Shown here piece after piece: positions 10,689 through 56,738 of a stretch of 64,000 nt of DNA. Position numbers and translations under genes: made by a program. The notes under the pieces were generated by a model. The model saw only the letters and a program-made list of their open reading frames with translations, was not told the origin of the DNA and did no database searches. The stretch covers positions 1,984,001 to 2,048,000 of the forward strand of contig CADDXC010000001.1 in NCBI GenBank assembly GCA_902809985.1, in the 5' to 3' direction. This DNA is from Clostridiaceae bacterium BL-3. GTDB taxonomy: Bacteria > Bacillota > Clostridia > Clostridiales > Clostridiaceae. Within the stretch, counting starts at the first letter, position 1, and each line of letters starts with the position of its first letter.

Positions 10689-10712
10689 CATGTAGCCTGT
10701 ACTAAAACCTAT

Positions 10713-10753: not shown

Positions 10754-10776
10754 TTTAATTTAATACAGTATAAAAA

Positions 10777-24452: not shown

Positions 24453-24580
24453 TAGGGTTCCGCAGTTTGAAATTTATGACTGGTCAGGTCCAAGATGAAA
24501 CACACAACTTATTGTGTTCACGGAGGGATAAAAGCCCGGGAGATATTTCATAATATCAACCGGAGCTTTTTTATTTTTTA
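24453..24580 (+). promoter_or_regulatory. Guanidine-I (ykkC) riboswitch with intrinsic terminator
   Basis: The leader has the ykkC signature elements in order: TAGGGTTCCGC, CTGGTC-AGGTCC, ACGGAGGGATAAAAGCC and CCGGGAGA. The last overlaps a hairpin ending in a long T tract (GAGCTTTTTTATTTTTT at about 24563-24579). This fits transcriptional control in which bound guanidine prevents the terminator. The gene directly downstream is an SMR exporter, a known partner. The rest of 24138-24452 is AT-rich with nothing else recognised. Confidence 0.93.
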
Positions 24581-38384: not shown

Positions 38385-38408
38385 GCATTACTAAATATTT
38401 AGTAATGC
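38385..38408 (-). terminator. 24-base perfect palindrome at the radical SAM gene stop
   Basis: GCATTACTAAAT is followed directly by its complement ATTTAGTAATGC and covers the stop codon of the radical SAM gene. It can form a hairpin but lacks a T tail on the minus strand, so it may be an attenuating or stabilising 3' end. Confidence 0.4.
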
Positions 38409-39080
38409 ATTTGAAATTTTTTCAAATCTTTCATCAGTTATACCAAGTTTTTTTCTGAATCTTTCATCTTCCATTCTGGCAATAATTATCTTGTGAGGAG
38501 ATATTTTATTGATAATATTTTTTATCCTCTGAATTGATTCTTCATCATCGTTATAACCCTTAATGATAGTAATTTCAAATATAAACTTTCCTTTGTATTG
38601 TTTATTAAAAGCAATCATATTTGAAATATATTTTGCTAATGTATACCCTTCAATAGGTCTTTGGATTTTTTGGAAGCCCTCTTCTGTTATTATTTTTAGT
38701 TCTCCAACAACTTCATCACATTTATTGGCAATTTTCATATATTCATCTCTACCTAATAAATATCCATTAGAAAACAGCCTTACAGATAGACCTTTGCCTT
38801 TAATAAAGTTAATAATATCATCGATTTTGTCATTTACTAAGGCTTCTCCTTTTGAGTTAATAAAAATTAATTCTGGTTTTGTATTTTCTATTATGCTTTC
38901 TAGTTCAATCAATGAACTTTCTATTTTATTAAATGACTTTTGGGTATCTACCTTATTTTTCGATCTTCCAATAGGACAAAATATGCAGTCAAAGTTGCAG
39001 TACTTTTCTGGAAGTATGTTAATTTCCAGTACTCTTTTTCCATCTTCAACATAAATATCTTTATAGCTAAAATCACCCAT
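38391..39080 (-). CDS. Radical SAM protein under a guanidine-I riboswitch
   Basis: Radical SAM protein of 229 residues with CX3CX2C at residues 28-35 (KYCNFDCIFCPIG). The opening (VLEINILPEKYCNFDCIFC) and length resemble stand-alone radical SAM proteins that have no added cluster domain, similar to wyosine-type or activating-enzyme-like members. There is no SPASM cysteine cluster, only one [4Fe-4S] site. GGGGGATAAGG precedes the ATG. The leader 39212-39325 is a guanidine-I riboswitch, so expression should rise with guanidine; the substrate is unknown and a guanidino compound is the natural guess. Confidence 0.85.
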   Translation of the reverse strand: MGDFSYKDIYVEDGKRVLEINILPEKYCNFDCIFCPIGRSKNKVDTQKSFNKIESSLIELESIIENTKPELIFINSKGEALVNDKIDDIINFIKGKGLSVRLFSNGYLLGRDEYMKIANKCDEVVGELKIITEEGFQKIQRPIEGYTLAKYISNMIAFNKQYKGKFIFEITIIKGYNDDEESIQRIKNIINKISPHKIIIARMEDERFRKKLGITDERFEKISNALLNI

Positions 39081-39211: not shown

Positions 39212-39325
39212 AAAAAACCCTAAGGAAATATTATAAAAATATCTCCCGGGCTTTTATCCTTCCGTGTACACAACTAAATGTGCGTTCTCTCTCGGACCAG
39301 CCAGCTGCAAACTGCGGAACCCTAG
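39212..39325 (-). promoter_or_regulatory. Guanidine-I (ykkC) riboswitch with terminator, minus strand
   Basis: On the minus strand the order is CTAGGGTTCCGC, CTGGTCCGAGAG, ACACGGAAGGATAAAAG, CCCGGGAGA, then a hairpin ending CCTTAGGGTTTTTT. These are the same elements as at 24453-24580 and the variable arm between them differs, so it is a true second copy and not a recent duplication. The radical SAM gene start is about 130 bases downstream. Confidence 0.92.
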
Positions 39326-39559
39326 AAAACTCAAATATATAAAATCTCTTGTAACCTATAAGTTGCAACTTATAAATTTAATTTAGCATAATAGTTGATT
39401 TAAATCAAGTCAATATTTTTTCTTCTATGACTCTCAGTATCTCATATATAAACCATTTTCTTTCATATTACTTAAAATTATATTTTCATAACATACTTAT
39501 TGATATTCCTAAAACTATCTTTTCTTCACGTTATCTTTTGATATTTCTACTCTTCGTAC

Positions 39560-39786: not shown

Positions 39787-40791
39787 TCAACAAATGCGAG
39801 GCAGTAGTTCTCCACCTGGCTGAGGCAGAAGCGTCTGTGAACCAATGGCTGTTTTCATAATTACCTTGCCGGGCATATCAGAGGTAACCTCACCGATAAT
39901 TGCGGCATTCTTCGAATAAGGGCAACCGTGAAGTGTCTCAATGACCGACAGAGCCTCTTCCTTTGGTACAAATACTACAAGCCTGCCCTCGCAGGCCAGA
40001 TACAGAGGTTCCAGCCCAAGCATGCCGCAGATACCGGACACCTCTCCGGCAACCGGGATCTTTTCAGCATCCAGGCGTATTCCAACACCACTCTGTCCTG
40101 CGATCTCATACAGCACTGTACCGACACCACCTCGTGTGGCGTCACGGATAACATGAATATTCTTAGTGGTATTGAACATTTGTTTAACCGTATCCCACAG
40201 AGGAGCGCAATCACTTGTGATGTTTGCATCAATGCCGAACTCATCCCTGGCAAGCAGAATTGCACAACCGTGCCGCCCTATATCACCGGTTACGATAACG
40301 GCGTCACCCTGCCGGGCCAGCTTTCCTGAAGGATTCGCACCCGCCAATATCCGACCAATTCCGGTAGTGGTAATAAAAATATTGTCCACCTGACCTTTTC
40401 CCGTCACCTTGGTATCGCCGGCCACAATCTTCACGCCGGCTTCCTTCGCCGTCTTTTCCATCGCCTCCGCAATTTGCTCCAGTTTTTCCATCGGAAATCC
40501 CTCTTCAATTACAAAGGCACAGGATAGGTAAAGCGGTTTTGCGCCCATGCAGGACAAATCGTTGACTGTTCCGCATATACTGAGTTTTCCGATGTTCCCA
40601 CCTGGAAACTCATAGGGTGAAACGATAAAACCGTCCGTAGTAAATGCAATCTTCCCTGATTCTATTGGCAGGACCGCCGCGTCATCTGCAGTTAAATCCG
40701 GATTAGAAAAATGAACCTTAAATATCTGATCAATCAGCTCTGACGTCTGCTTTCCGCCTGCACCGTGAGCTAGCATAACCGTTTTATACAT
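39787..40791 (-). CDS. hypE: HypE, carbamoyl-dehydratase (thiocyanate-forming)
   Basis: Protein of 334 residues of the AIRS/PurM fold that dehydrates the carbamoyl group from HypF to give the cyanide ligand precursor. MLAHGAGGKQTSELI opens the protein, TADDAAVLP is the ATP/metal segment, and the C-terminus ends PRIC, the essential cysteine that carries the thiocarbamate. It overlaps hypD by eight bases. The last gene of the hypF-C-D-E run; no hypA or hypB follows. Confidence 0.95.
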   Translation of the reverse strand: MYKTVMLAHGAGGKQTSELIDQIFKVHFSNPDLTADDAAVLPIESGKIAFTTDGFIVSPYEFPGGNIGKLSICGTVNDLSCMGAKPLYLSCAFVIEEGFPMEKLEQIAEAMEKTAKEAGVKIVAGDTKVTGKGQVDNIFITTTGIGRILAGANPSGKLARQGDAVIVTGDIGRHGCAILLARDEFGIDANITSDCAPLWDTVKQMFNTTKNIHVIRDATRGGVGTVLYEIAGQSGVGIRLDAEKIPVAGEVSGICGMLGLEPLYLACEGRLVVFVPKEEALSVIETLHGCPYSKNAAIIGEVTSDMPGKVIMKTAIGSQTLLPQPGGELLPRIC

Positions 40792-41839
40792 TTAAATCTC
40801 CTCCATACTGATAATAGGCTGAGCATGCACCCTCGTTGGACACCATGCAAGCACCCACTGGATGCTGCGGTGTGCAGCCAGTCCCAAACGCTTTGCAGTC
40901 TGATGGCCTGCATTTTCCCTGAAGTACATCGCCGCAGCGGCATGCGGGGCTGCTCCTGCCAGTGATCTTCGGTAGACTGAACCGAAGCCTTGCATCAAAA
41001 CCACCATACACATCTCGAAGTTTAAGACCGGAACCTTCTATCATTCCAAGCCCACGCCATTCGGCATCGCAGGGCTCCATGACTTCTTTTATAAGCTTTT
41101 GCGCAAGTACATTGCCTTCGGGCTTCACCACCCGCGGATAACAGTTCCGGAAAAATGGCTTTCCTTTCTGACTCAACTTGATCACAACAGCAAGTGCGGT
41201 AAGAAGCTCGTCCGCAGTAAAACCCGTCACGACACCGGAGATTCCCTTTTTAACAAGTTGTTCACAGACATACGTTCCGGCAATAGCGTTGACGTGTCCC
41301 GGATAGAGGAATGCGTCAGCACTGTTCTTCAGTACTTTGTAAGCATTTGGCATCGTCTTGTTGGCACCGAGGATAGTGAAATTTTTGAGGCCCGCCATTT
41401 TAGCTTTTTTGACAGCGAGACACGCTGCCGGCACTGTAGTTTCAAATCCCACTGCAAGAAAAACAACATTTTTATCCGGGTTTTTCCCAGCGTATTCAAC
41501 GGCATCCAGCGGAGAATATACCATCTTAATAGCCGCACCCTTCGGCCTGGCGCCGGCTAGACTTACCTTTGATCCGGGAATGCGGATTAGATCGCCAAAA
41601 GTACAGATAACCGCACCATGATCAAGTGCGAGCATGACGGCCTCGTCGATAAATCCAACCGGCGTAACACAGACCGGACACCCGGGGCCGGAGATCAGTT
41701 CAACGGCTTCGGGCAGGATTTTCCGGATTCCCAGTCTGAAAATTTCATGGGTATGCGTGCCGCATACTTCCATAATGCGAAGATGCCGGCCATTATAAGA
41801 TTCAATAATTTCCTTTGCGGATGCATTACGATTTCCCAT
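40784..41839 (-). CDS. hypD: HypD, Fe(CN)2CO assembly scaffold
   Basis: Iron-sulfur protein of 351 residues that with HypC assembles the Fe(CN)2CO unit. It shows MEVCGTHTHEIFRLGI, SGPGCPVCVTP and GFETTVPA, the conserved catalytic motifs, and the cysteine-rich C-terminus CRCGDVLQGKCRPSDCKAFG followed by TGCTPQHPVGACM for the [4Fe-4S] cluster. All signature motifs are intact. The ATG overlaps the hypC stop (TAATG). Confidence 0.95.
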   Translation of the reverse strand: MGNRNASAKEIIESYNGRHLRIMEVCGTHTHEIFRLGIRKILPEAVELISGPGCPVCVTPVGFIDEAVMLALDHGAVICTFGDLIRIPGSKVSLAGARPKGAAIKMVYSPLDAVEYAGKNPDKNVVFLAVGFETTVPAACLAVKKAKMAGLKNFTILGANKTMPNAYKVLKNSADAFLYPGHVNAIAGTYVCEQLVKKGISGVVTGFTADELLTALAVVIKLSQKGKPFFRNCYPRVVKPEGNVLAQKLIKEVMEPCDAEWRGLGMIEGSGLKLRDVYGGFDARLRFSLPKITGRSSPACRCGDVLQGKCRPSDCKAFGTGCTPQHPVGACMVSNEGACSAYYQYGGDLNV

Positions 41840-42045
41840 TAAAGCGTCTCCATAATTTTACTAGTTTCATCAGCATCGCTGTCAGTAATTTTGGCAATAG
41901 CCATTCCTGCATGAACCATAACATAATCACCGGGTTCGAGATCCTCCATCAGATCTACCGATACCTTCCTTTTGGCCCCGGACATGTCAATAACCGCCGT
42001 GTCTTCATCGATGTTGACAACCTTTGCTGATATTCCTACACACAT
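41839..42045 (-). CDS. hypC: HypC chaperone
   Basis: Small protein of 68 residues starting MCVGISAKVV. The N-terminal Met-Cys is the conserved iron-binding/HypD-interacting cysteine. HypC carries the Fe(CN)2CO group between HypD and the apo-enzyme. Ribosome site GGAGGTATGAATT. In a normal hydrogenase operon HypC is specific for a large subunit, but none is encoded in this window. Confidence 0.95.
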   Translation of the reverse strand: MCVGISAKVVNIDEDTAVIDMSGAKRKVSVDLMEDLEPGDYVMVHAGMAIAKITDSDADETSKIMETL

Positions 42046-42094
42046 AATTCATACCTCCAATATTTGATAATATAATTCATTTAAATACATGGTT

Positions 42095-44401
42095 TTATTG
42101 ATTTAGATGGTACATGGCGGCAACTGCCTGACCGAGCGCGATCCCGCCGTCGTTCGGAGGGATAAGACTGTGAAGCAACACAGTAAATCCATGTTCCCGC
42201 AGCCGTGAAGTACACATTCCAGTGAGGAGCCGGTTCTGGAAAACGCCGCCGCTGAGCGCACACACATCAAGCCCTGTTATATCCCGGGCCTTTTCACAAC
42301 CTGCCGTAATCATTTCCGCCAAGGCAACATGGAACGTATAGGCGAGCTCTTGTGTGTCTTCACCCGAAAGCACCAAATCCGTCAGATATTTCACCAGTTC
42401 ATCCGTGCAAAGCACAAACCTGTTTTTTACGGAAATCAACATTCGATGGACGGCGCCGGAAACTTTTTCCGAGGTATCCGGATACTGTTCACAGTAAGTC
42501 TCGGCGGCAAACTGGAGCGCCATTGATGCCTCACCCTCAAATGTTGAAATTCCCCTTATGCCGAGAATGGCGCTGACCGCGTCGAAAAGCCGTCCAGCAC
42601 TGGTGGAAAGGACACTGTTGAGCTTCTTATCCGCCATCATCATCTGCACACGCATTACCTTTGGGCTGCATAGGCCCAGCGCGGAGATAACATCAGCTGC
42701 CTTATCTTGATATAGAGCGTAAAGCATCGAAACGGCAATACGCCATCCCTCCTGAGCCGAGACATCACCACCAATCTGCAAAAACGGACGGATACTGCCG
42801 AGCCGTTCGAATCCGCCGTAAGACGATTTTAAAAACTCGCCTCCCCAGATGGTTCCGTCAGCCCCATAGCCAGTGCCGTCAAAAGAGACTCCGATCACAT
42901 CATCTGCATAATCGTTTTCCGCCATACACGAAACAATATGAGCGTAATGATGCTGTATCTTCATGATCGGTAGGCCAAGTTCTCCCGCAATGGCCGTTGT
43001 GTTGTATCTCGGGTGCATATCGCACGCCACAATCTGCGGCTTTGCTTCAAGCAGAGTTTCCATTCTTTCAACAGATTCGCGCAGGGCACAGACGGTGCGT
43101 ATGTCCGCCATATCTCCAACATAGGGGGACGGATAAAACAGTCTATTTTTCCCAATGCAAAACGTATTTTTCAGCTCGCCGCCAATACCAAGGACCTGTC
43201 CGTGAAAATCACTTGAGAGCATAAATGGCAGCGGTGAGTATCCGCGTGACCTCCGAATCATATAGGGTTTTCCCTGAAAAAAATCCATGACAGAATCGTC
43301 GGCTCTCAAGCGGATTTTCCGATCGTGCGACAAAACCACATCGCAGAATCCTGAGATTTCGTGTAAGACATCCTCATCACTTTTGCAAATCGGCGCACCC
43401 GATACGTTTCCGCTCGTCATTACCAGGCAGTCCGTCATTTGAACATCATCATCATAAGTAAAGAGCAGCATCTGTATTGGCGCATAGGGCAGCATAACTC
43501 CAACCATCGGGTTATCTGGCGCAATCTGATCGCAAAGACGGCTGACTGGCTTCTTTCTCAGAAGGATGATGGGCTTTTGGGGACCGTTCAATATTTTCTC
43601 CTGCCCAGGGAGAATCATACACTCGCGTTTTACTGTGTTCAGATCATGCAGCATAACCGCAAACGGCTTTATAGGTCTACTTTTTAGTGCACGCAGACGG
43701 TTGACGGCTCTTTCATTCGATGCGTCACAGCAGAGGTGAAAACCACCAATTCCCTTGACCGCCGCAATTTTTCCATCCATTATGGCACGTCTTGTATAGG
43801 TAATCGCATCCGCACCACGCTCCGAACGTTCAAGCAGATACACCTGAGGACCGCAGTCGTTGCAGCAAACTGGCTGTGCATCGTACCTTCTGGTTTCGGC
43901 ATGGGTGTATTCATATTCGCAGGCAGGGCACATCGGGAATTCTCCCATGCTTGTGCGGACACGATCGTAGGGCATGGAATCGAGAATAGTCAGCCTCGGG
44001 CCGCAGGCAGTACAATTGATAAAAGGGTGCAGATAACGCCGATTGTTTCTGTCAAAAAGCTCCTGTTTACACTTGTCGCATGTGGCAATGTCCGGTGAAA
44101 CAAAAATATCTCCAACCTCTTTTTCGCTTTCAATAATTTCAAAGCTCTCCACAGTCTTTTCGTCAGTCTTGTTTAAATCTATCTTTAAAATCGTCGATCT
44201 CTCAGGAGGTTCGTTTTTAAGCACTTTCAAAAACGCATGAAGTGCTTTGTCCGTTCCCTGTACATGCACTTCCACGTAAGATCCCTTGTTGGCCACACTT
44301 CCCTTGATGCCGAACCGGTGGGCAATTCTGCTGACAAACGGCCGGAAGCCCACACCCTGGACAATACCGTAAATCCTGATGATCAGAGAAGACATTTTCA
44401 T
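42095..44401 (-). CDS. hypF: HypF carbamoyltransferase
   Basis: Protein of 768 residues with the full HypF layout: acylphosphatase domain (IYGIVQGVGFRPFVSRIAHR, residues 7-26), two zinc fingers CX2C-X18-CX2C (CDKCKQELFD...CTACGP and CPACEYEYTH...CNDCGP), a YrdC domain (about 200-390) and a Kae1-like C-terminal half (QHHYAHIVSCMAE, FDGTGYGADGTIWGGEF). It makes the carbamoyl group from carbamoyl phosphate and ATP for HypE. The ATG at 44401 follows GGGAG by seven bases. It is about 40 bases after the NifK-like gene on the same strand, so probably one transcript. Confidence 0.95.
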   Translation of the reverse strand: MKMSSLIIRIYGIVQGVGFRPFVSRIAHRFGIKGSVANKGSYVEVHVQGTDKALHAFLKVLKNEPPERSTILKIDLNKTDEKTVESFEIIESEKEVGDIFVSPDIATCDKCKQELFDRNNRRYLHPFINCTACGPRLTILDSMPYDRVRTSMGEFPMCPACEYEYTHAETRRYDAQPVCCNDCGPQVYLLERSERGADAITYTRRAIMDGKIAAVKGIGGFHLCCDASNERAVNRLRALKSRPIKPFAVMLHDLNTVKRECMILPGQEKILNGPQKPIILLRKKPVSRLCDQIAPDNPMVGVMLPYAPIQMLLFTYDDDVQMTDCLVMTSGNVSGAPICKSDEDVLHEISGFCDVVLSHDRKIRLRADDSVMDFFQGKPYMIRRSRGYSPLPFMLSSDFHGQVLGIGGELKNTFCIGKNRLFYPSPYVGDMADIRTVCALRESVERMETLLEAKPQIVACDMHPRYNTTAIAGELGLPIMKIQHHYAHIVSCMAENDYADDVIGVSFDGTGYGADGTIWGGEFLKSSYGGFERLGSIRPFLQIGGDVSAQEGWRIAVSMLYALYQDKAADVISALGLCSPKVMRVQMMMADKKLNSVLSTSAGRLFDAVSAILGIRGISTFEGEASMALQFAAETYCEQYPDTSEKVSGAVHRMLISVKNRFVLCTDELVKYLTDLVLSGEDTQELAYTFHVALAEMITAGCEKARDITGLDVCALSGGVFQNRLLTGMCTSRLREHGFTVLLHSLIPPNDGGIALGQAVAAMYHLNQ

Positions 44402-44440
44402 CAATTCACTCCCTTTCTTTATACCACCGCTTTACACGGT

Positions 44441-45484
44441 TCATTCTTCCAGTCTGCCGGATACTGCGAAATGCGGAAAATCAATAAATTGGCCATAATA
44501 GTGCCTGAGTGCACGTTTCAAAAAACTGTCACCGATAACCACGTTATAGCCGCCGTCTTCCACAGCAGCGGCAAACTGCCGCTCGTCCGTGAGTCTGAAG
44601 TCCCCCTTCTGCTTCAAATCATCCTTCAGCATGAACCACGATGCAACCGTCACGTCGGCATCGACACTATCAAGTATTCTATTGCGTACCGAGTTTGCCA
44701 GTATTTGCTGATGGATCACAAGCACCCGTTTTCCGGCAAGTCCTGTTAACTTTTCCTTCAGATTTTTCGAAATGAGGGGACAACCTATGGTATACGGTGT
44801 CCCGAAGGTTGATCTCAGGTATTTCGCAGTTTTAAGGCCAGCAGGAGATACAACCAGGTTTTTTTCTGCGGCAGAGGCGTGCTGTACACTGTCAAGACCG
44901 CGGCCCATTCCATAGCAAACGGCCCTACCAAGGCCACTGTGCTCCACCGCCGAAGCCATAAGCTCCCCGGCCTGCAGGCTAGAAAATTCAAGCGGTGTCA
45001 CTCCCAGCACGCCGACGGTGCCGCGTTTTACCGGAAAGCCCTCCGTGGCAAAGCCCTGAAAAAGTTTCAGCATGGCGCTCTCTTCCCCCTCATCATAGAG
45101 GCTGGTCCCGCTCGTCTCAATAGTAATTGCCGGAAGTCCAGTCCTTTTCTCGGCCATGCGCTTAAGTGCACGAAAATCCGTTCCTATGACCGCCGGAACA
45201 GGTGTGCCGATAATCGCCGTAAACGCTGCGTCTATCTTTGATACGGCATCCTGCAGTTTTGTAATCAACCGTTCGTCACATCCGAGTATCGCATCCATGT
45301 CCCGCAGCCCAGCACTGAAAATGGCACTTTTTTTCTGGAACCAGCGCGGCTCATCAAAGCCGCATACGTTCCCGGTACATCCACCTGCATCACAGATCAC
45401 AATAAGACTTCCAAGTTCGAAGAGTACCGATACGGCTCCGGATATATCCGGAGCGAACGGCGACAGATATTTAATCATATTCAT
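44441..45484 (-). CDS. Nitrogenase component 1-like protein, NifK-type (set 2)
   Basis: Nitrogenase component 1 fold of 347 residues, much shorter than true NifK (about 520). VICDAGGCTGNVCGFDEPRW holds Cys31, Cys36 and Cys41 where nitrogenase beta subunits carry cluster ligands. The next segment IIGTPVPAVIGTDF lacks the cysteine that the set 1 homologue has (ICGSPV). NifK partners bind NifD to form a heterotetramer docked by NifH. It begins at once after the NifD-like stop and is followed by hypF. Which cluster it holds cannot be told. Confidence 0.82.
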   Translation of the reverse strand: MNMIKYLSPFAPDISGAVSVLFELGSLIVICDAGGCTGNVCGFDEPRWFQKKSAIFSAGLRDMDAILGCDERLITKLQDAVSKIDAAFTAIIGTPVPAVIGTDFRALKRMAEKRTGLPAITIETSGTSLYDEGEESAMLKLFQGFATEGFPVKRGTVGVLGVTPLEFSSLQAGELMASAVEHSGLGRAVCYGMGRGLDSVQHASAAEKNLVVSPAGLKTAKYLRSTFGTPYTIGCPLISKNLKEKLTGLAGKRVLVIHQQILANSVRNRILDSVDADVTVASWFMLKDDLKQKGDFRLTDERQFAAAVEDGGYNVVIGDSFLKRALRHYYGQFIDFPHFAVSGRLEE

Positions 45485-46786
45485 TCAGTCCTCCTTGCTA
45501 AATACTGTATCGAGCGCTTCAAAAAGTGCCGTCACACCGGCATATCCAAAGGGTTGGAGTTCCTCATTCCAGTCAACTCCGACACATCCCGGATGATAAT
45601 AGGCCGCATCTTTGCCAATGACGGCGTTTACGTTCGAATCATCTGAGTCGTAATAGAGCATGGTCGGAGAAAGATTGGAATAAATTTTTGTCTGCGGACT
45701 GAGCCGTGCAATTTTTTTGAGGTAGGCAAAATTCACATCGCCCACAGTGCCGTAGATTTCGGAAACCGCGAATCCATATCGGATTAACGCCAGTGACAAC
45801 TCAAAGGGGTCGGCATTTGCCCATTCACCTACCGCGAACGTGACATTGTTGTGATCACTGCGAAATTTTTCAACTGATGCGGATGCCATATTGTAATATT
45901 TTCGGTCGTCGAAGGTCACACCCAAGGCCTGACCGAAAAGATGATACTGATTGCGTATTTTGTCCAGCTGATACATCCTTGTCAGTTCAATACTCGGGAT
46001 ATTCAACTTTTTTTCCATGTCCAGCACGGCATGTCTCGCCTCCTGGCTCAGAACAAGATTGAAGTTCGCCTGAGCCATGGTCAAATACTCACCAAAATCC
46101 CGGCATCGGGAAATTTCACGGATCTGATGTATACCCGCCTGTCTTAGGAGAGCATACAGCTCGCAGTCGTCCCTCAGCGGCGAAAAATATCCGATGATAT
46201 TCATTGCATCCGGCTTTTTAGGGACAGGTTTCAGCAGGGAATAAATGGACTGGCACACCGCGACCATGGGCGGTAGACGCCCCTCCCGTGTCAGTGCATA
46301 CATATAGCATGGAATCACGGGAACTCCCGCATGCTCAGATGCCCTTTTGCATACACGTTCCATATCCGTTCCAAGCAGTGCGTCAACACAGGTAATGCAG
46401 ATCATGACAGCCGTTGGCACCGTATCACATGCCTCACAGACCTCCTTAACTGCATTTGGAATTTTGGTCAGATGCCGCCCTGTGACAATATCAGTTTCAT
46501 CCATCGTCATGTAAAAAAATCGTTCTTCATAGCCCTTTTGGCTGAGTGCAGCTGTGTTTCTTCCGCAACAGCCCGGTGAAATAAGCAGCATTACGGAGCC
46601 TGGGATGGCCAGTCCAGCACGTTTGACGCCGAAACCCTGTGCGCCCGGAGAGTTGAACGCCAGCGTTGCAGGTGAACTGTAAATCAAGTGCGTAGACGAA
46701 AGCAGCTCATCTGGTATATCGGAATACCCACGGTGCACTAGTTCTTCGGCGCTTATGTAATATGCCTTATTCATCGGTTTCTTCAT
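45485..46786 (-). CDS. Nitrogenase component 1-like protein, NifD-type (set 2)
   Basis: Nitrogenase component 1 domain protein of 433 residues, shorter than NifD (about 480). [14 protein letters not shown] (Cys73, Cys74) and [14 protein letters not shown] (Cys130, Cys133) lie at the usual cluster-ligand regions. No FeMo-co His/Cys pair typical of true NifD can be recognised. The start overlaps the NifH-like gene by 20 bases, or by 8 if the ATG at 46774 is used; ribosome sites do not decide. It pairs with the next gene downstream. Confidence 0.82.
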
Positions 46787-47531
46787 CCCCAGACAATAAC
46801 TCTGCCAGGTCGAAAAATTTGCAGCTTACAGGCAGTGAAGCATCCCCCTCTATGACAGTTTTCCCCATATCTTCGTATCGAATAATATCGTCACTTCTCG
46901 GAATATCCGCAACAATTGGCAGACCGACATTTAAGGCAAACGCCCGGACTTTTTCCTCCTCATGATCCACATTTCTACGATTAAATACGATGCCGCGCAC
47001 CTTTGCGTAACTGCGGTCGGCAAAATTATGGACGGCGGTGTTGATATTATTTGCAGCATAAAGTGCCATTTTTTCACCGGAAGTAACAATCAGCACCTCT
47101 GATGCATACTCCTCCCGTATCGGTGCGGCAAATCCACCGCACACAACGTCTCCGAGCACGTCGTAAAGGACAACATCGGGGCGGTATTTTTCAAAAAGAT
47201 CCAGATCGTTCAACAAGCTGAATGTCGTAATGATTCCACGGCCCGCACACCCGAGCCCCGGAGTCGGCCCACCGGTCTCGATGCACAAGACATGCCCAAA
47301 GCCCTCTTTTGTGATTTCCTCCAGATGATCCGGCTCTCGGTCGAATTTTCGCAAATAATCCATAACTGGCATGACCCGATTCCCGGCAAGCAGGTTGATC
47401 GTCGAATCCGCTTTCGGATCGCAGCCAATCTGGATTACTTTTTTCCCAAGAGAAGCAAATGCAGCACTTAGATTACTCGTAATCATTGATTTTCCTATTC
47501 CACCTTTCCCGTAAACAGCTATTTTTATCAT
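46767..47531 (-). CDS. NifH-like ATPase iron protein (set 2)
   Basis: Fe-protein of 254 residues. P-loop GKGGIGKSM (the third residue after Lys is Met where Thr is normal), switch region GCDPKADST, and both [4Fe-4S] cysteines: GLGCAGRGI (Cys95) and [11 protein letters not shown] (Cys131). The fold and dimer cluster are those of nitrogenase iron proteins, protochlorophyllide reductase BchL and CfbC. The overlap with the upstream NifK-like gene is four bases (ATGA) and it runs into the NifD-like gene. Confidence 0.9.
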
Positions 47532-48676
47532 ATCGTTTCCTCCAGTTTCAGCTTTCTATTAATCAAATTCGGTATTTGTTCCCGGTAGCACCTTCCGGAA
47601 AATGCCTCGTGCGGCAGACTGTAAAACGATACGTCATCCGGACATATCGGCTTATAGAGAGGATCCGCTATGACACTGCCGGCTAAAGCAAACTGTCTCG
47701 CTGCATCATCCTCATTTGGAATGAGAACATCCCCCTCCGCCGTCAGTTCTTCCGTTGTTTCCAGCGGACAGAGTACCCTGACTGATCTACCGGATTCCAC
47801 CTCGATTGCACGTGCAAGCGATCCAGCAAATATGCTTTCGCCGACAACTGTCAGTCCGCCATCCGATCCACTTTTCCGCTCTGCACAGGGCACACTGCTT
47901 TTTCCACTCTTTGCAGCTCTTCTAAGTACATGGGCAAGGATGTCGGCAAACCCGATTCCAAATGGAACACCGGCAACGTATGGAGTACCGAACTGTTTTT
48001 GCAGCATTTTTGCGGTGGCAAGACCGCTGTATGACACAACAAGGTTGACATGTGCACTGCCCGCCAGGCTGATACGATCCAAATCACTCCCCATTGCCAT
48101 GCAGGATACAAGCCTAAATCCACTTTCGGCGAGCCACCGTTTGATCGATTCCACGCTGCCATTTATTGAGAAGTCCAATGGTGTTGCCCCGATAATATTC
48201 ACGGAGAGATCTTTAGACCTGGCAACATCTCCATGGCAAAAATACTTCACGACAGTCTCCAATGCACAGGAAGCACCGGTAAGATAGGAGTGCATGCCAT
48301 TTGTGCTCAAGCCGAAGGTCGGGATACCGGTCTTTTCACCGATCACCTTGGCAATTGCCTTAAAGTCCGTCCCGATCATCATTGCCACCGGAGAACCGCA
48401 TATGGCGATGAACCTCGGCGAAAGTTCCCCAGCCGTATTCACAATATCGCCAATCAATCTATTGTCGTCACCCAGGATGGCCTCCGTCTCCGTCAGTGCG
48501 GATATATAGATCATGCTGTCCAGATCATACCACCTGGGCTCGTCATGCGTTGTATATGTAGAATTGCATCCCGATGCGTCATGAATTACAGTCATTCCCC
48601 CAAGCTCAAAGAGAGCGGAGCAGACACCCGAAATATCCGCCGTATAAGTTGATATAATTCTTGCCGTCTGTCTCAT
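47528..48676 (-). CDS. Nitrogenase component 1-like protein, NifK-type (set 1)
   Basis: Protein of 382 residues with the same N-terminal pattern as the set 2 NifK-like gene: [20 protein letters not shown] (Cys37) and [15 protein letters not shown] (Cys93). [18 protein letters not shown] is typical for this fold. It retains the second cysteine that the set 2 homologue lacks. The ATG overlaps the fusion gene stop by four bases and its own stop overlaps the NifH-like gene by four. Partner of the NifH-NifD-like fusion by position. Confidence 0.82.
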
Positions 48677-50775
48677 AAGCAGCTCTCACACCCCAATCCT
48701 TTATACTGGATGACCGTTTTCACGTCCTTTTCGTGCAGATATGCATCGGTCATCATTTCGGCAAGACGGACGATCCCATCAAAACCGTACATTCCGCCGC
48801 CTGCCACGATATTTACAAAATGGCCTGTTTCATTGAAATACGCAGCCTTCTGGCCGATAGCCAAAACTTTTTCATCATGGCTGCCATGAGCGGCAAACCG
48901 CATCTTCGGGTGAACCGTCGAGGACAGCACAAGTTCCGGTTTATTTTCTTTCAGCCAGACAAAATCCCGCCCGTCCTCATCGAGAAAACTGTCCACATAG
49001 ACTTTTTTCACCGCAAAGTCGTGTTCCACAAGCAGGCGAGCTAATCCGAGAGGACGCGGTGTCGAGGTGTAGTCGATGGCAATCGGTATATTTCCAATAA
49101 TACGGTATGCGTCTTTAAGGGCCTTGTCCGCTCTGTCCATGGCATCCGAGAAATCTGGCATCTTAATTTCAAGAACATTAGAAAGTTTCCTGTAATTTTC
49201 CATGATTTCTTTGTACGAATAACTCAGCGGCAGATACAGATAATTCTGTCCAAGCCTTTGACAAAGTTCCTCACCAGCAGCAAACGCTGCGGGAAGATAT
49301 GTAATATTGACGGCGCTTTCCGCCATCTTCAAATAGTCTCCATAAGTTTTACAGAGTGCAATATCCCTGATCTCGAAGCCTGCGCCGCGTATTAAGGAAA
49401 CAAATTCACTCGATTCGTCAGTGGGCCTGTCGTTTCCGATGATATTGACATATTTTTTATTCTTCTGCACCGATCTTAATGGACTGTACAGCTGTCGGCG
49501 CATAATCTGATCCATTGTCAGTCCACTCTTGCGCATCGTGGGAGTCATATAACACTCAACAAAATCAACGCCGGGAAAACGCGTGCTCAGTTCAGTCAGA
49601 GCTACTTTGAAATCACAACCAGTAAAAAGATGGATACAGCTGATAAACACAAGCACAGCCGGTGGAAGCGTATCCATTTTATTCAGAATATCAGCCGTAC
49701 CATCGACAATATTCCGCTCCATACTGCCATCCAAAAGGTCGTTCTCATGAACCGAAACCCAGGACATCCTATCCATGGCGTTCATCTCAGCCGCGGTGAG
49801 AATGACACCGCGCAGACATCCCTCGGCACAAACGAATACCTGGTGCGACTGTGGTATCAGCATCCCCGTATGCACGATGTTCCATGGTCCCCTGGCCGGT
49901 GCATTGTATTCCAGCCCGGAGAGAAACGGTGACGGAAATTCGGCATCACGTATTCTTATTTCCTCTCCGATCATACCTGCTTTTCCATTGATTTTTTTCA
50001 GCACACTGTTTCTCCTTCTCTTTTGCTTATGCATGTGCAGTATATTTTCAGAGAGGCTGCGGTATTGAGAAGCCATTTTGCTGTCTGGAAAGGCTTCGAT
50101 AACTGTCTTATTCAGCAGTTCCGCATCTCGTACAGTCTCACTCAAATCAAGCGCTCCGGCGATTTCTGTATGGAAATCAGCCGCCAGTTCTTTCACCTTT
50201 TTCTCCTCGTTTTTTACGTTTCGGCGATTTAAGATCAGCCCGCCGAGAGAAGCGTAGCCACGGCCTTTAAAATCTTCCACAGCCATAGCAATATTTGCCG
50301 CTGCGTAAATCGACATATTTTCTCCAGATGTTATAATGAATACACTATCGGCATAGCCACCGTGCATGGGCATGGAAAATCCGCCACAGACCACATCTCC
50401 GAGCACGTCATACATTACAACGTCTGGTTTGTATGTTTCATATGCGCCCTTCTGGGCGAGCTTTTCAAGTGCGGCGATGATACCTCGTCCCGCGCAGCCA
50501 CGCCCCGGCAAAGGGCCACCCGCTTCAACGCAGATTACTCCGTCAAAGCCGACGCATACCATATCATCCAGTGCAAAATCATTGTTATATTTTCTCACAA
50601 GCTCCAACACAGTGGGTATTTTTGTACCGCCGTGAAGGATGGCGGTGGAATCTGCCTTCGGGTCACAGCCTATCTGCATGACCCTGAGCCCTTTTTCAGC
50701 CATCGCCGCCGCCAGATTTGAAACCGTGGTTGATTTCCCGATACCACCTTTTCCATATACAGCTAACTTAATCAT
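48673..50775 (-). CDS. NifH-NifD-like fusion protein (set 1)
   Basis: Single open frame of 700 residues. Residues 1-250 are a complete iron protein: P-loop [18 protein letters not shown], Cys94 in GRGCAGRGI and Cys130 in GDVVCGGF. A linker rich in Lys/Arg (about 250-262, HKQKRRRN) leads to a component 1 domain of about 430 residues with VCAEGCLRG (Cys316, Cys320) and [13 protein letters not shown] (Cys380, Cys387). No stop or frameshift sign lies in the linker, so the fusion looks real. It starts at the ATG after AGGAGGTGGAAAAA. It couples to the NifK-like gene. Confidence 0.88.
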
Positions 50776-50823
50776 TTTTTCCACCTCCTGCATAATTTTT
50801 CTGCACTGAAATTATACTTCAGC

Positions 50824-50850
50824 GCAAAATCATTGTTATATTTTCTCACA
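50824..50850. repeat. 27-base duplicate of the nifH-like coding sequence at the hydE end
   Basis: A 27-base stretch, GCAAAATCATTGTTATATTT plus TTCTCACA-type end, is identical to 50573-50599 inside the NifH part of the fusion gene (codons for about residues 60-68, RKYNNDFA). The match extends to about 31 of 33 bases. In this copy it supplies the hydE stop codon. It looks like a scar of duplication or deletion when hydE was joined to this operon. Confidence 0.7.
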
Positions 50851-51964
50851 TTTCTGTTGTAGGGCAGGGATCAGAGTTTGGTACTTCCATCTGCCGATCA
50901 AAATGGTCCCCTTTTGAGAAGTCTGGAACAAAGCCGGCGGTTTGTATCCGGCCGGCAAGGCAGTGGAAGCATTCCGCTGATTCCTCACCCATACAGATTT
51001 TATTATCATAGAGAGAGTAATCTCTGCGGTGCTCCGTCGGGGAAAGGTTTGGCATAACCACGTTAGCACTTGCCTGAAAACCTTTCTCCCTGCCAATTGG
51101 GTCAACAGTACCAAGTGCAGTCGTTGCAGGAAGCAGCGATTTTGGCAACAGAAACCTTAAAAGCGAGAGCAATATCAGCGTCGTCCTTGACGAAGGTTCA
51201 TAATAATTTGCGAATTGAGTGTCCTTATGCGGAATAAAAGGACCTATTCCTACCATATGAGGCTGTAAATCTCGAAGAAATATAAAATCCTCAGCCAGTG
51301 TATCATACGTCTGATAAGGTGAATCCACCATAAATCCAGAACCAACCTGATAGCCTATTTCCTTGAGATTATACAGGCACTGCATACGGTTTCTGAGACT
51401 CAGTTCAGGCGGATGAAGCTTTCTGTAATGTGCTTCATCGGCCGTTTCATGCCGCAAAAGGTATCGATCTGCACCGGCGTCAAAAAGCCGCCTATATGAG
51501 TCTCGGCTCCTTTCTCCCAATGAAAGCGTAACCGCACTCTCAGGAAAACTGGCTTTGATGGCTGAGACAATATGGCACATCCGTTCATCGGTATAATATA
51601 TATCCTCACCGCTCTGTAATACAAAAGTCCGATATCCAAGCCTGTATCCGATTGTACAACAGTTTAGGATTTCCTCATCTGAGAGTCTGTATCTGCGCGC
51701 ATTAAAATTGCTTCTTCGAATACCACAGTAATAGCAGTCGTTTCTGCAGAAACTTGAAAACTCTATAAGCCCGCGGAAATATATTTTTCGATCATAGTAT
51801 TTTTCCCTGATTTCTTCCGCACGACAGGCAAGCAGAGAAAGCACCTCCGTCTGTGCATTCTGTAAAAAAAACCTCAATATTTCAGAAAGTTCCCTTTTAC
51901 AGGCATTATTCAAAAAGTCAGTCAGTTTCGACGCGTCATTTGCGTCATTCAATTGAATCGTCAT
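50846..51964 (-). CDS. hydE: HydE radical SAM enzyme
   Basis: Radical SAM enzyme of 372 residues. CX3CX2C at residues 73-80 (SFCRNDCYYCGIRR) binds the SAM cluster. The C-terminal CX7CX2C (KICMGEESAECFHCL) matches the accessory cluster site of HydE. LIEFSSFCRNDC, LQSGEDIYYTDE and LSLGERSRDSYR are typical HydE segments. In [FeFe]-hydrogenase maturation HydE works on the complex made by HydG, and HydF takes the product; neither hydG nor hydF is here. The ATG at 51964 has AGAGGTGG upstream; an ATG at 51988 is possible. It is 70 bases ahead of the fusion gene. Confidence 0.92.
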   Translation of the reverse strand: MTIQLNDANDASKLTDFLNNACKRELSEILRFFLQNAQTEVLSLLACRAEEIREKYYDRKIYFRGLIEFSSFCRNDCYYCGIRRSNFNARRYRLSDEEILNCCTIGYRLGYRTFVLQSGEDIYYTDERMCHIVSAIKASFPESAVTLSLGERSRDSYRRLFDAGADRYLLRHETADEAHYRKLHPPELSLRNRMQCLYNLKEIGYQVGSGFMVDSPYQTYDTLAEDFIFLRDLQPHMVGIGPFIPHKDTQFANYYEPSSRTTLILLSLLRFLLPKSLLPATTALGTVDPIGREKGFQASANVVMPNLSPTEHRRDYSLYDNKICMGEESAECFHCLAGRIQTAGFVPDFSKGDHFDRQMEVPNSDPCPTTEM

Positions 51965-51984
51965 CGCCCACCACCTCTTCTCTG

Positions 51985-52041
51985 TCATTTACCATAGCGT
52001 CCAACTTCCACAGCGCCTCCGGTTATTTTGGGTAAAGTCAT
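51985..52041 (-). other. Possible 18-codon leader frame before hydE
   Basis: GGGGAGG is followed by ATG and a frame MTLPKITGGAVEVGRYGK that ends in TGA overlapping the upstream hydE ATG at 51988. The spacing from GGAGG is too short for normal initiation. It may be a relic of an upstream gene or a coupling leader. Confidence 0.2.
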
Positions 52042-52087
52042 TACCTCCCCTTATTATAAGCTTCTGGTTTATTTCGGTTAGACAAAT

Positions 52088-52117
52088 AATAGCCGTATCC
52101 TGACGGATACGGCTATT
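52088..52117 (-). terminator. Strong stem-loop between the TM1266-like gene and hydE
   Basis: AATAGCCGTATCC and GGATACGGCTATT form a 13-bp stem with a four-base loop. The flanks are T-rich on the minus strand (ATTATTTGTC). It could end the regulator transcript or attenuate entry into the hydE operon. Confidence 0.7.
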
Positions 52118-52193
52118 TCATATTTAACAGCTATATCGATCTTTCGTCTCAAAAAAATTTTGACGTCAGGCTGATATTTGTTTGATTTAATTA

Positions 52194-52445
52194 TTAATTT
52201 GTAACATTAGAATATACCGTTTTTGCAGTAACTCCTTTAATTCGACCGATTTTCCCCGCAATAGTATTGATCTTGTCCTGCGGAGCATCAATCACGATGC
52301 TAATAATATTGATTCCCTTTTCACGATAGGGAAGTCCCATGCGCCCAATAATATAGGAACCGTATTCATGCAACAGATCATTGATCTGCTCTGCACATTC
52401 CCTGCTTTCCGCAATGATTGCGATAATGGCCACTCTTGTTTCCAT
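52194..52445 (-). CDS. TM1266-type putative iron-only hydrogenase system regulator
   Basis: Small ACT/NikR-like protein of 83 residues starting METRVAIIAIIAE, with YGSYIIGRMGLPYREKGINIISIVID and GKIGRIKGVTAKTVYSN. The family is named after TM1266 and occurs with [FeFe]-hydrogenase maturases. It probably senses a metabolite or binds DNA/nickel-like ligands as a small regulator, but this is unproven. The ATG at 52445 follows GAGGTGGTGCCG. Its promoter lies at 52486-52514. Confidence 0.85.
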   Translation of the reverse strand: METRVAIIAIIAESRECAEQINDLLHEYGSYIIGRMGLPYREKGINIISIVIDAPQDKINTIAGKIGRIKGVTAKTVYSNVTN

Positions 52446-52485
52446 CGGCACCACCTCATAATTTACCAATTCTTTTATGATATTG

Positions 52486-54635: not shown

Positions 54636-55547
54636 CTAATTGTAAATATTTTTACTAAAATATCTATCTCCTCTATCTGGAAATATAACTACTATATTTC
54701 CCTGCTCTATAGTCTTTGACAATTTTATTGCTCCTGCCATTGCAGCACCTGAAGAGGATCCCACTATTAATCCTTCTTTTTTTGCTAATTTCTTAACCAT
54801 ATCGAAAGCCTCTTCATCATTTATTTTTATAACTTTATCAACTAGATCCATGTCCATGGTACAGGGAACAAAATTGTTTCCTATGCCTTCAACCGCATAA
54901 TGACCTTCCTCGCCGCCACCTAAAGTGGATCCCTCCGGATCTACCAGAACTGATTTTATATCCTTTATTTTTTCCTTTAAATATCTCGCAACCCCTGTAA
55001 AAGTACCTCCACTACCTGCTCCTGCTACAAGATAATTAATTCGTCCTTCCATATCCAAATATATTTCAGGACCTGTAGTTAAATAATGAGCTTGTGGATT
55101 ATCAGCATTTTCAAATTGCTTTAACGAAATTGAGTTTGGTATACTTTCAAGGAGCTCTTGTGATTTTTCTATAGCCCCAATCATTCCCTTATCTTCAGGA
55201 GTATTTACTATTTCTGCCCCAAGTGCTTTCATAAGAGTTTGTTTTTCAACAGAAAATTTCATTGGAACTACAAATATAACTCTATAGCCTTTGTTGAGGG
55301 CTCCCAGGGCAATACCCAAGCCAGTATTACCTGCAGTTGCTTCTATTACAGTATACCCTTTCTTTAAAATTCCCCTCTTTTCTGCACTTTCTATCATATA
55401 CGCCCCAATCCTGTCTTTTACACTGCCTCCGGGGTTGAAATTTTCTAATTTAGCAAATATAGACACACCGTCTTTTATATCAAAATTATTTAATTTTAAC
55501 ATGGGCGTATTGCCTATCATCTCTTTTATATCATTATAATATATCAT
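54636..55547 (-). CDS. mccA: O-acetylserine/cystathionine beta-synthase family enzyme (MccA/CysK)
   Basis: PLP enzyme of 303 residues. NPGGSVKDRIGAYMI holds the PLP lysine, EATAGNTGLGIALG and AGAGSGGTFTGVARYL are the phosphate-binding loops, and VGSSSGAAMAGAI lies near the end. EGHYAVEGIGNNFVP resembles the MccA group, which makes cystathionine from homocysteine and O-acetylserine; a plain cysteine synthase is the alternative. The operon with mccB and a YrrT-like methyltransferase under a Cys T-box favours MccA. The start at 55547 follows GGAGGGTTAACAAC. Confidence 0.85.
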   Translation of the reverse strand: MIYYNDIKEMIGNTPMLKLNNFDIKDGVSIFAKLENFNPGGSVKDRIGAYMIESAEKRGILKKGYTVIEATAGNTGLGIALGALNKGYRVIFVVPMKFSVEKQTLMKALGAEIVNTPEDKGMIGAIEKSQELLESIPNSISLKQFENADNPQAHYLTTGPEIYLDMEGRINYLVAGAGSGGTFTGVARYLKEKIKDIKSVLVDPEGSTLGGGEEGHYAVEGIGNNFVPCTMDMDLVDKVIKINDEEAFDMVKKLAKKEGLIVGSSSGAAMAGAIKLSKTIEQGNIVVIFPDRGDRYFSKNIYN

Positions 55548-55592
55548 GTTGTTAACCCTCCACCACATTTCACATTGCGCAATTATGCTGTT

Positions 55593-56735
55593 TTATTTAG
55601 AAAATTCCAATGCATTTTTCAAATCTTCTACTAGATCTTTTTTATTCTCAAGTCCTACGGACAATCTAATCAAATTATCCACTATTCCTATTTTTTGTCT
55701 TATTTCATAGGGTACTGCTGCGTGAGTCATTGTAGCTGGATGAGATATTAATGATTCAACTCCTCCTAAGCTTTCGCCCAAGGTTATAAGCTTCAATCCC
55801 TTAAAAAATTTATTTATATCTATACCCTCTTTTAAAACGAAGGATATAATTGCACCATACCCTGAAGCCTGGGATTTATGAAGTTTATATCCAGGATGAG
55901 TTGAAAACCCAGGATAATAGATCTTGTCTATTAGCGGATTCTCTTTCAAAAAATTGGCCACATATTCGGCATTCTCATTGTGCCTATCCATTCTAACAGA
56001 TAATGTCTTTATTCCTCTTATTAAAAGCCAGCTGTCAAAAGGATTTAATATGCCTCCCGTTGAGTTTTGAATAAAATGAACCCTTTCTCCTAATTCTTCA
56101 TTATTTACCACCAAAAGGCCAGCAATCAGATCACTATGACCGCCCAAATATTTAGTAGCACTGTGGATCACTATGTCTGCACCTAGTTTTATAGGCTTTT
56201 GAAGATAAGGTGTCATAAACGTATTGTCCACAATAGTTAACACCTTATTTTTCCTTGCTATTTCACTTATCTTATATATATCCGTTATGGTCATAAGTGG
56301 ATTGGTAGGTGTCTCAATAAATATTGCCTTTACATCTTCAGTAATGCTTTCCTCTACTTTTTGCAGATCACTGGTATCCACTAGTACATAATTTAAATTG
56401 AAGTTCTTGAATATTTTATCTATAACTCTGAAAGTTCCTCCATACACATTACTGGAAACTATTATTTTATCTCCGCTTTTGAAAAGCATCAAAGCCGCCG
56501 ATATAGCTGCCAGTCCAGAAGCAAATGCAAAACCTCTATATCCGCCTTCCAGATCTGCAATTAATTTTTCCAGAGCTTCTCTAGTTGGATTTCCCGTTCT
56601 AGAGTACTCATAACCGCTATTTTTGCCAAGCGCCTCCTGTTTATAGGTAGAAGTTTGATATATAGGTACACTGACTGCCCCTGTTCTTTTATCTCCATCT
56701 ATTCCTCCGTGTATTAACAATGACTCAATCTCCAT
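55593..56735 (-). CDS. mccB: Cystathionine gamma-lyase/synthase (MccB type)
   Basis: Trans-sulfuration PLP enzyme of 380 residues. SRTGNPTREALEKLIADLEG, FASGLAAISAAL, the lysine in IHSATKYLGGHSDL and SLGGVESLISHPATMTHA are the standard motifs. In Bacillus MccB cleaves cystathionine to cysteine. It lies between the methyltransferase and MccA genes, in the order yrrT-mccB-mccA, with no mtnN. The operon is controlled by the Cys T-box upstream. Confidence 0.9.
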   Translation of the reverse strand: MEIESLLIHGGIDGDKRTGAVSVPIYQTSTYKQEALGKNSGYEYSRTGNPTREALEKLIADLEGGYRGFAFASGLAAISAALMLFKSGDKIIVSSNVYGGTFRVIDKIFKNFNLNYVLVDTSDLQKVEESITEDVKAIFIETPTNPLMTITDIYKISEIARKNKVLTIVDNTFMTPYLQKPIKLGADIVIHSATKYLGGHSDLIAGLLVVNNEELGERVHFIQNSTGGILNPFDSWLLIRGIKTLSVRMDRHNENAEYVANFLKENPLIDKIYYPGFSTHPGYKLHKSQASGYGAIISFVLKEGIDINKFFKGLKLITLGESLGGVESLISHPATMTHAAVPYEIRQKIGIVDNLIRLSVGLENKKDLVEDLKNALEFSK

Positions 56736-56738
56736 AAT

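Follow-up and report, generated by a model that had tools for sequence, protein, structure and literature searches.

HydG is the known maker of the CO and cyanide of iron hydrogenases, which it obtains from tyrosine, and to our knowledge HydF is known only from the assembly of the H-cluster. In [NiFe] hydrogenases the chemistry of HypE and HypF leads to Fe(CN)2CO, not to Fe(CN)(CO)2. The window, i.e. the whole stretch of 64,000 nucleotides of Clostridiaceae bacterium BL-3 analysed here, carries a cluster in which parts of both maturation systems stand together with two nitrogenase-like sets of genes.

With HydEFG maturation the system shares TM1266, HydE and HydF, a HydA in the genome and a similar operon neighbourhood; at the opposite, a module of two nitrogenase-like triads (NifHDK1 and NifHDK2) and HypFCDE stands where HydG would be, and HydG is absent. 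With HypCDEF of [NiFe]-hydrogenase maturation it has in common all four Hyp proteins, the PRIC tail of HypE being kept, but the module is found without a [NiFe] large subunit in its own genome, its HypD belongs to a separate clade, and HypA and HypB are no part of the cluster. Like nitrogenase NifHDK and the NifEN scaffold it combines an Fe protein with two D/K-like subunits—twice, and with a predicted component-1 fold. However its scores are far below the nitrogenase cut-offs, NifB is absent from 4 of 13 carriers, and NifD2 has a Ser at the place aligned by hhalign with the FeMo-co ligand Cys of NifD. CfbCD, BchLNB/XYZ and MarHDK share the ATP-driven architecture of a NifH-like and a component-1-like protein; here again the module differs, reaching no curated Cfb or Bch cut-off, and its NifH1 and NifH2 stand apart from the one BchL compared.

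In PMC9431212 no clear explanation is given for the lack of hydG reported in C. ljungdahlii, C. carboxidivorans, C. ragsdalei and two others, each of which has HypCDEF. In the open-licence literature covered, mostly titles and abstracts, no description of such a combined system was found, and a system joining Fe-CN/CO chemistry to ATP-driven nitrogenase-like reduction appears to be undescribed, as the initial annotation of this DNA had supposed.

Results

The eleven genes from TM1266 to hypE, first read as one series on one strand, are all present on the minus strand in that order, with family scores over the cut-off for HypE, HypD, HypF, HydE and TM1266 (Table 1). From TM1266 downward the intergenic gaps are of 205, 52, -4, -4, -20, 0, 36, 49, -1 and -8 bases. 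The ORF finder opens TM1266 at a TTG at 52469, while the ATG at 52445 corresponds to the end of the cluster in the initial annotation. The G+C content is 48.1% in the cluster against 35% in its flanks; because of this 48% G+C within a 35% G+C setting, the module copy of the window was probably acquired laterally.

Table 1. Genes of the cluster, in order from TM1266 to hypE
Gene or product	Position in the window	Strand	Remarks
TM1266-family putative regulator	52194..52469	-	first cluster gene; TIGR03959, 109 bits (cut-off 60.8)
hydE, radical SAM maturase	50846..51988	-	TIGR03956, 523 bits (cut-off 254.6); CRNDCYYC motif
NifH1-NifD1 fusion	48673..50793	-	NifH at about residues 1-265 (PF00142), NifD-like at 276-706
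NifK1, nitrogenase component-1-like	47528..48676	-	PF00148, 114 bits
NifH2, second Fe-protein-like ATPase	46767..47531	-	PF00142, 282 bits
NifD2, nitrogenase component-1-like	45485..46786	-	PF00148, 91 bits; predicted component-1 fold
NifK2, nitrogenase component-1-like, about 350 aa	44441..45484	-	PF00148, 68 bits
hypF, carbamoyltransferase	42095..44404	-	TIGR00143, 764 bits (cut-off 466); TTG start listed
hypC, 68 aa	41839..42045	-	N-terminus MCVG; named by reading its sequence
hypD	40784..41839	-	TIGR00075, 392 bits (cut-off 192.8)
hypE	39787..40791	-	TIGR02124, 432 bits (cut-off 251.6); C-terminal PRIC

The two NifH domains match PF00142 at 292 and 282 bits, and three D/K-like genes match PF00148. 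No Pfam or NCBIfam family matches the NifD half of the fusion; a profile comparison (NifE, E 1.3e-6) and the predicted fold mark it as nitrogenase-like. This half ends in a conserved Cys-rich tail. The models of NifD1 and NifD2 have the component-1 fold; solved Mar chains are among their fold matches, none being the best. Many cysteines are maintained throughout the module loci, in alignments whose rows were limited by length beforehand, so that the denominators run from 53 to 79 and not to 80: C43, C88, C100 and C136 of NifH1 (53/53), C47, C51, C111 and C427 of NifD1 (57/57), C37 of NifK1 (59/59; C19 57/59), C95 and C131 of NifH2 (79/79), C73, C74, C130 and C133 of NifD2 (69/69), C36 and C41 of NifK2 (60/60; C31 55/60). 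NifH1 and NifH2 both display the features of an Fe protein, that is the P-loop GKGGIGKS and the invariant pairs C100–C136 and C95–C131 respectively, which we take to be the Fe-protein cluster cysteines. The module HypC start with MCV or MMCV in 68 of 70 cases and with MQCI in the 2 others.

These nitrogenase-like proteins fall outside the groups covered by the curated models and by a NifH tree. The NifH model gives 288 and 311 bits for a cut-off of 394, NifD and NifK models remaining far below theirs; CfbC (NF033200) gives 312 and 286 bits for 402, CfbD (TIGR03282) at most 24 for 268, BchL at most 205 for 345 and BchX at most 194 for 331, with BchB and BchZ far below. A plain nitrogenase, DPOR or Cfb reading was rejected since none of these cut-offs is reached. 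The NifH tree was built with rows from a hand-picked 25 of the 80 module loci, from the window and with 10 further rows, none of them CfbC or MarH; in it NifH1 and NifH2 (81/86 for the latter) group apart from nif and from the single BchL.

Three HydA-like genes (PF02906) are found in the genome of the window. The one at C1:106340 has the P1/P2/P3 motifs TSCCPAW / MPCTCKEFE / EVMTCPQGCISGGGQP, and the other two are without them in this form. HydF is encoded at C1:1642254 (596 bits), and the only hydE over the cut-off is that of the cluster. The best match to the HydG model in this genome has 228 bits for a cut-off of 312 and was read as ThiH, and no PF00374 match, i.e. no [NiFe] large subunit, was found there, on which ground a [NiFe] reading was rejected for this genome. 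The initial annotation had set a hydrogenase reading aside, hydG, hydF and hydrogenase genes being missing at the locus: this argument fails, as HydA and hydF lie elsewhere in the genome, and hydF within the cluster of the sister genome G001. It had also considered that hydrogenases and maturases located elsewhere might account for the whole set; HydF and HydA are indeed there, HydG and the [NiFe] large subunit are not, and as far as tested its reading is not refuted on this point.

The association of these gene families recurs in other genomes, as the initial annotation had thought worth searching, and it constitutes a conserved module. We fetched 80 loci of Bacillota, Lentisphaerota and one Spirochaetaceae MAG, found with NifD2 as the query, with up to 10 kb per side, some being cut by contig ends: all ten core genes are present in 56 of them. 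In the family of the window the ten genes stand together in 12 of the 13 carrier genomes, window included; in G084 the first triad is on a separate contig, adjoining TM1266. NifH1 and NifD1, fused in the window, are separate genes in the 11 other own-family carriers besides G001, whose order is TM1266-HydF-HydE-NifHD1-NifK1-NifHDK2-HypFCDE (HydF 576 bits). Among the 80 neighbourhoods TM1266 is found in 51, HydE in 34, HydF in 21—excluding one weak match that belongs to another GTPase—and HydE with HydF in 19, and none of the 80 includes hydG or HydA. No other neighbour gene is widely conserved; the largest unassigned clusters, present in 10 of the 80 loci, were identified by reading their sequences as ABC-transporter ATPases. 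TM1266 directly adjoins hydG at locus L180. The carriers include C. ljungdahlii, C. carboxidivorans and C. ragsdalei, and also Roseburia faecis, Anaerobutyricum hallii, Eubacterium ramulus, Ruminococcus bicirculans and a Blautia, these last five having 2 to 5 PF02906 matches each; R. faecis, A. hallii and R. bicirculans are human-gut bacteria.

The module alternates with HydG. Among the 194 genomes of the window's family, HydF is over the cut-off in 180 and HydG in 169, two numbers reproduced when HydG and HydF were called in each genome by its best E-value, with 1e-90 as the dividing line. Counting per genome, with no correction for shared ancestry, the module occurs in 10 of the 13 genomes of this family with HydF and without HydG, versus 3 of the 167 with both (Fisher p 1.0e-11); the 13 genomes of the own genus divide into 6 with the module and no HydG and 7 with HydG and no module (p 5.8e-4); and in the family of Roseburia faecis (397 genomes), HydG is found in none of the 31 carriers, scored by NifD2 alone and one of them by a fragment at a contig end, versus 175 of the 366 others (p 7.6e-9). 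All 13 own-family carriers have HydF and HydE over the cut-off and a PF02906 match.

Exceptions appear on both sides. G004, G084 and G106 carry the module and keep HydG. Three genomes with HydF, G006, G160 and G167, have neither HydG nor the module, and all have PF02906 matches, so that HydG can be absent without the module, or was missed in drafts. In G006 and G167, tblastn with HydG near hydE-hydF matches only the hydE genes themselves, and the neighbours scanned there encode transporters, a beta-lactamase-fold protein and an amylase. In the HydE tree the protein of the window stands away from most module HydE and groups with that of G023, which is hydG-linked, and that of G167 (93/87); the grouping is unstarred, with long branches flagged and just two hydG-linked rows in the tree. 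Its position next to the G023 protein suggests that a single type of HydE may function with HydG or with the module alike.

Discussion

In the family of the window the ten-gene module tracks the absence of HydG while HydE, HydF and HydA stay, and it often stands with TM1266, HydE and HydF where HydG is expected in the order. As it is found mainly in bacteria without HydG, the module probably replaces HydG in the maturation of [FeFe] hydrogenase, its Hyp and nitrogenase-like parts supplying the Fe-CN/CO unit. We infer that HypF and HypE would turn carbamoyl phosphate into a HypE-bound cyanide and that HypC and HypD would be the scaffold for building the unit. The two NifH-NifDK-like complexes would perform the ATP-driven low-potential reductions needed by this unit, most likely yielding CO from a one-carbon source and/or acting on an Fe-bound intermediate. 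An Fe(CO)2(CN)-type unit, equal to the HydG product, would then go to HydE, to HydF and finally to HydA. The residues conserved agree with this reading, the PRIC tail in 62 of 63 module HypE and the cluster cysteines in every NifH1 and NifH2 aligned. Against it stand the exceptions above, the absence of HydA from all 80 neighbourhoods, and the Fe(CN)2CO rather than Fe(CN)(CO)2 that HypE and HypF chemistry gives in [NiFe] hydrogenases. We lean towards a second route to the H-cluster, in which two unclassified complexes of the nitrogenase superfamily and HypCDEF would make Fe(CO)2(CN), the CO arising by ATP-driven reduction.

Alternatively the module could serve its own enzyme, unrelated to [FeFe] hydrogenase, for which it would make or use a new Fe-CN/CO cofactor; of the two NifDK-like complexes one would be the scaffold and the other the catalyst, like NifEN and NifDK, and HydE would act on this cofactor. 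The pair of complete NifH-D-K-like sets, each with its separate NifH, does resemble a scaffold and an enzyme, profile comparison places NifE among the nearest solved relatives, and HydE and HydF are each present in less than half of the 80 neighbourhoods (just 34 and 21). However this explanation predicts neither the alternation with HydG in two families nor the linkage with HydF; besides, NifB over the cut-off is absent from four carriers (G008, G051, G075 and G116), therefore no NifB-made core is needed. It appears unlikely, and the new metal cofactor of the initial annotation gives way to the H-cluster of [FeFe] hydrogenase, which the cluster most likely serves.

HydG could also be replaced by ThiH or by another radical SAM protein, the module being a fellow traveller. 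ThiH cleaves tyrosine as well, and a ThiH-like gene is present in the genome of the window. An atypical HydG-like radical SAM protein has moreover been proposed in PMC9431212. Nevertheless a ThiH-level match to the HydG model is lacking in 10 of the 31 Roseburia-family carriers and in G008, G133, G139 and G142 of the own family, i.e. in 14 of the 41 HydG-less carriers (10/31 and 4/10), for which reason ThiH was rejected as the substitute; this replacement is very improbable.

The Hyp genes might instead mature a [NiFe] hydrogenase, the nitrogenase-like genes supplying its CO ligand. HypCDEF make Fe(CN)2CO, and a [NiFe] large subunit is found in 9 of the 13 carriers. The origin of the CO ligand in anaerobes is called unresolved in PMC12134894. 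Yet the genome of the window, G001, G008 and G046 have the module but no [NiFe] large subunit, and the HypD tree separates all 70 module sequences, as one clade (100/100), from 30 others, these being the ones with loci among the 110 HypD-positive genomes of the 194 and not all coming, perhaps, from [NiFe] clusters. Among the 194 genomes HypD accompanies the [NiFe] large subunit in all 104 that encode the latter; 6 more have HypD without it, and 4 of these are carriers. As the absence of HydG would also be left unexplained, we give this possibility hardly any credit. On the other hand, in G004, G051, G084, G133, G139 and G142 the module HypD is the only HypD beside a [NiFe] large subunit, so that in these six carriers the module Hyp genes may serve both hydrogenase types.

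That common descent alone makes the module and the absence of HydG coincide in the same lineages, as counts per genome over related, not independent, genomes might allow, is highly doubtful given that two module types of the own genus (the window with G001, and the C. ljungdahlii group, whose module lies within a starred 32-row HypD clade leaving the window out) are both without HydG, that a second family shows the same alternation and that the G+C contrast points to lateral arrival.

If the module does replace HydG, acetogens (C. ljungdahlii, C. carboxidivorans), gut Lachnospiraceae and Ruminococcus, and rumen Lentisphaerota would rely on a second H-cluster route. This offers an answer to two observations found in PMC9431212, namely that in several industrial acetogens [FeFe] hydrogenases, HydE and HydF occur with no recognised HydG, and that HypCDEF are present in them without recognised HypAB. 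It would link the ATP-driven reduction of nitrogenase type to the assembly of hydrogenases, and would give a handle on the anaerobic source of the CO ligands that PMC12134894 leaves in question.

Conservation of the module

The eleven genes read by the initial annotation, from TM1266 and hydE to hypE, were confirmed in that order on the minus strand, with tight packing downstream of hydE. A radical SAM motif is present in the window HydE; in an alignment of module sequences the two NifH-like proteins each retain the P-loop and two cluster cysteines; HypC begins with MCVG and HypE ends with PRIC.

Features of the window and of two fetched loci
Feature	Position (strand)	Remark
TM1266 to hypE	39787-52469 (-)	eleven genes
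NifH1-NifD1 fusion	48673-50793 (-)
38-base repeat	50562-50599, 50813-50850	89%; NifH1 coding piece duplicated just upstream of the fusion gene
Guanidine-I riboswitch	24441-24544 (+)	82.6 bits
Guanidine-I riboswitch	39241-39336 (-)	77.6 bits; upstream of the radical SAM-like gene
229-aa radical SAM-like gene	38391-39080	no curated cut-off reached in the family scan
T-box leader	57466-57726 (-)	upstream of the 54636-57374 genes
Methyltransferase and Met/Cys synthase-like genes	54636-57374	named from sequence reading
TM1266-hydE-hydF	L190 (genome G006), 9650-12192	adjacent, no third partner
hydE-hydF	L191 (genome G167), 4506-6747	adjacent, no third partner

The co-occurrence that the annotation proposed to look for elsewhere was recovered: a scan of one genome per species (84,980 species) gave 491 related stretches, and among the best 80 of these, which were analysed, 56 contain all ten core genes (NifHDK1, NifHDK2 and hypFCDE), on a single strand every time. 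These 80 loci include Lachnospiraceae, Ruminococcus, Clostridium, Lentisphaerota and MAGs of Spirochaetaceae and Synergistaceae; their neighbours are TM1266 (51/80), HydE (34/80) and HydF (21/80), HydG and HydA being found in none. Three orders are the most frequent, TM1266-HydE-NifHDK1-NifHDK2-HypFCDE (11 loci), NifHDK2-HypFCDE-TM1266-NifHDK1 (10) and TM1266-HydF-HydE-NifHDK1-NifHDK2-HypFCDE (10, one with the fused form). These ten genes constitute a single module. Within the own family (194 genomes) NifD2 is found at E <1e-180 in 13 genomes, 12 of which, window included, have the ten genes together; in G084 the first triad sits on a separate contig, adjoining TM1266. Carriers include C. ljungdahlii (HydG-less, and a close relative of C. 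autoethanogenum), C. ragsdalei, C. carboxidivorans, C. drakei, C. luticellarii, C. muellerianum and C. thailandense.

The nitrogenase-like subunits

Nitrogenase-like complexes are low-potential reductases driven by ATP. The D- and K-like subunits score far under every curated cut-off for nitrogenase, Bch or Cfb, which were rejected as assignments; by profile comparison their nearest solved relatives are NifE or nitrogenase alpha chains. The predicted models of NifD1 (pLDDT 86) and NifD2 (pLDDT 85) both show the nitrogenase component-1 fold, aligning at TM-scores of about 0.6 with chains of NifEN, MoFe, VFe, FeFe and Mar. Two of the three NifD cysteines that ligate the P-cluster have counterparts in NifD2, which in the alignment to NifD lacks the FeMo-co cysteine. 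The conserved end of NifD1, a GxGCxSC-like tail (C427 in 57/57), is disordered in the model and is possibly a carrier or a cluster ligand.

A separate, unassigned NifHDK-like set, distinct from the module, occurs in the fetched loci L052, L053 and L198 (Treponema saccharophilum plasmid pTS1), annotated in L198 as adjoining an iron ABC transporter. The L052 NifH-like protein reaches 348 bits for nifH and 354 for CfbC, both under cut-off; in the NifH tree the NifH of this set fall near nif, away from module NifH.

The module and HydG

HydF is over cut-off in 180 and HydG in 169 of the 194 own-family genomes, and the module is present in 10/13 genomes with HydF but no HydG versus 3/167 with both (p 1.0e-11, kinship ignored). 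Among the 13 own-genus genomes, six have the module without HydG and seven HydG without the module; HydG is absent with both module lineages that the HypD tree distinguishes there. In the Roseburia faecis family, NifD2 is found in 31/397 genomes and HydG over cut-off in 175/397, though in none of the 31 carriers (p 7.6e-9). Ten of these carriers have no ThiH-level match, so that ThiH was rejected as a general HydG substitute. Counter-cases are G004, G084 and G106, with both module and HydG, and G006, G160 and G167, with HydF and neither of them, which perhaps reflects draft gaps or yet another solution.

Three HydA-like genes occur in the own genome, of which one carries the full P1-P3 motifs, along with one HydF over cut-off among the matches listed. 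Its single HydE over cut-off is the window gene, and no HydG passes (best match 228 bits vs 312, read as ThiH); the window cluster is therefore the sole HydE source and HydG the missing piece. NifB is present, as are three NifH beyond the module's two; a family search found no [NiFe] large subunit.

As to a [NiFe] reading, HypD accompanies the [NiFe] large subunit in all 104 own-family genomes with the latter. HypD without [NiFe] occurs in six: four carriers (own genome, its sister G001, which shares the fusion, G008 and G046), G043, with a shortened HypD, and G056, with a remnant. In six carriers with [NiFe] the sole HypD is the module's, which may thus serve both enzymes.

Origin of the window copy

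The 70 module HypD form a single clade (100/100), separate from 30 others. The C. ljungdahlii group lies within a starred 32-row clade and the window outside it, its nearest relatives after G001 being a Spirochaetaceae MAG (91/76, unstarred) and Lentisphaerota. This proximity to the Spirochaetaceae MAG, together with a G+C of 48.1% vs 35% in the flanks, makes lateral arrival likely. In the HydE tree, with only two hydG-linked rows, the window HydE groups with G167 HydE and with the hydG-linked HydE of G023 (93/87, unstarred), which fits a HydE receiving the same unit from either supplier, HydG or module.

A candidate replacement for HydG

Excerpts of PMC9431212 report five of eight acetogens with HydE and HydF but lacking HydG, and guess that free ligands or an atypical radical SAM protein may stand in for the missing enzyme; for C. 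ljungdahlii, C. ragsdalei and relatives they note that HypCDEF are present and HypAB absent. They also report an [FeFe]-hydrogenase purified from C. autoethanogenum, a species to which they assign a HydG from an unusual motif. Nitrogenase is mentioned once, and the excerpts do not link the missing HydG or HypAB to nitrogenase-like genes. An open-licence literature search found no published description of the module system.

According to an excerpt of PMC13360658, HydG makes an Fe(CO)2(CN) unit from tyrosine, which then passes to HydE. Excerpts of PMC12134894 derive cyanide from carbamoyl phosphate via HypEF, leave the anaerobic CO source unresolved, and discuss as its possible origin a reduction that requires ATP and a potential of about -530 mV. 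What we demonstrate is genetic, and we propose from it that the module is a candidate HydG replacement in [FeFe]-hydrogenase H-cluster maturation: HypFE would supply CN-, HypCD would carry Fe, the NifHDK-like complexes would provide CO or reducing power, and HydE with HydF would complete the assembly.
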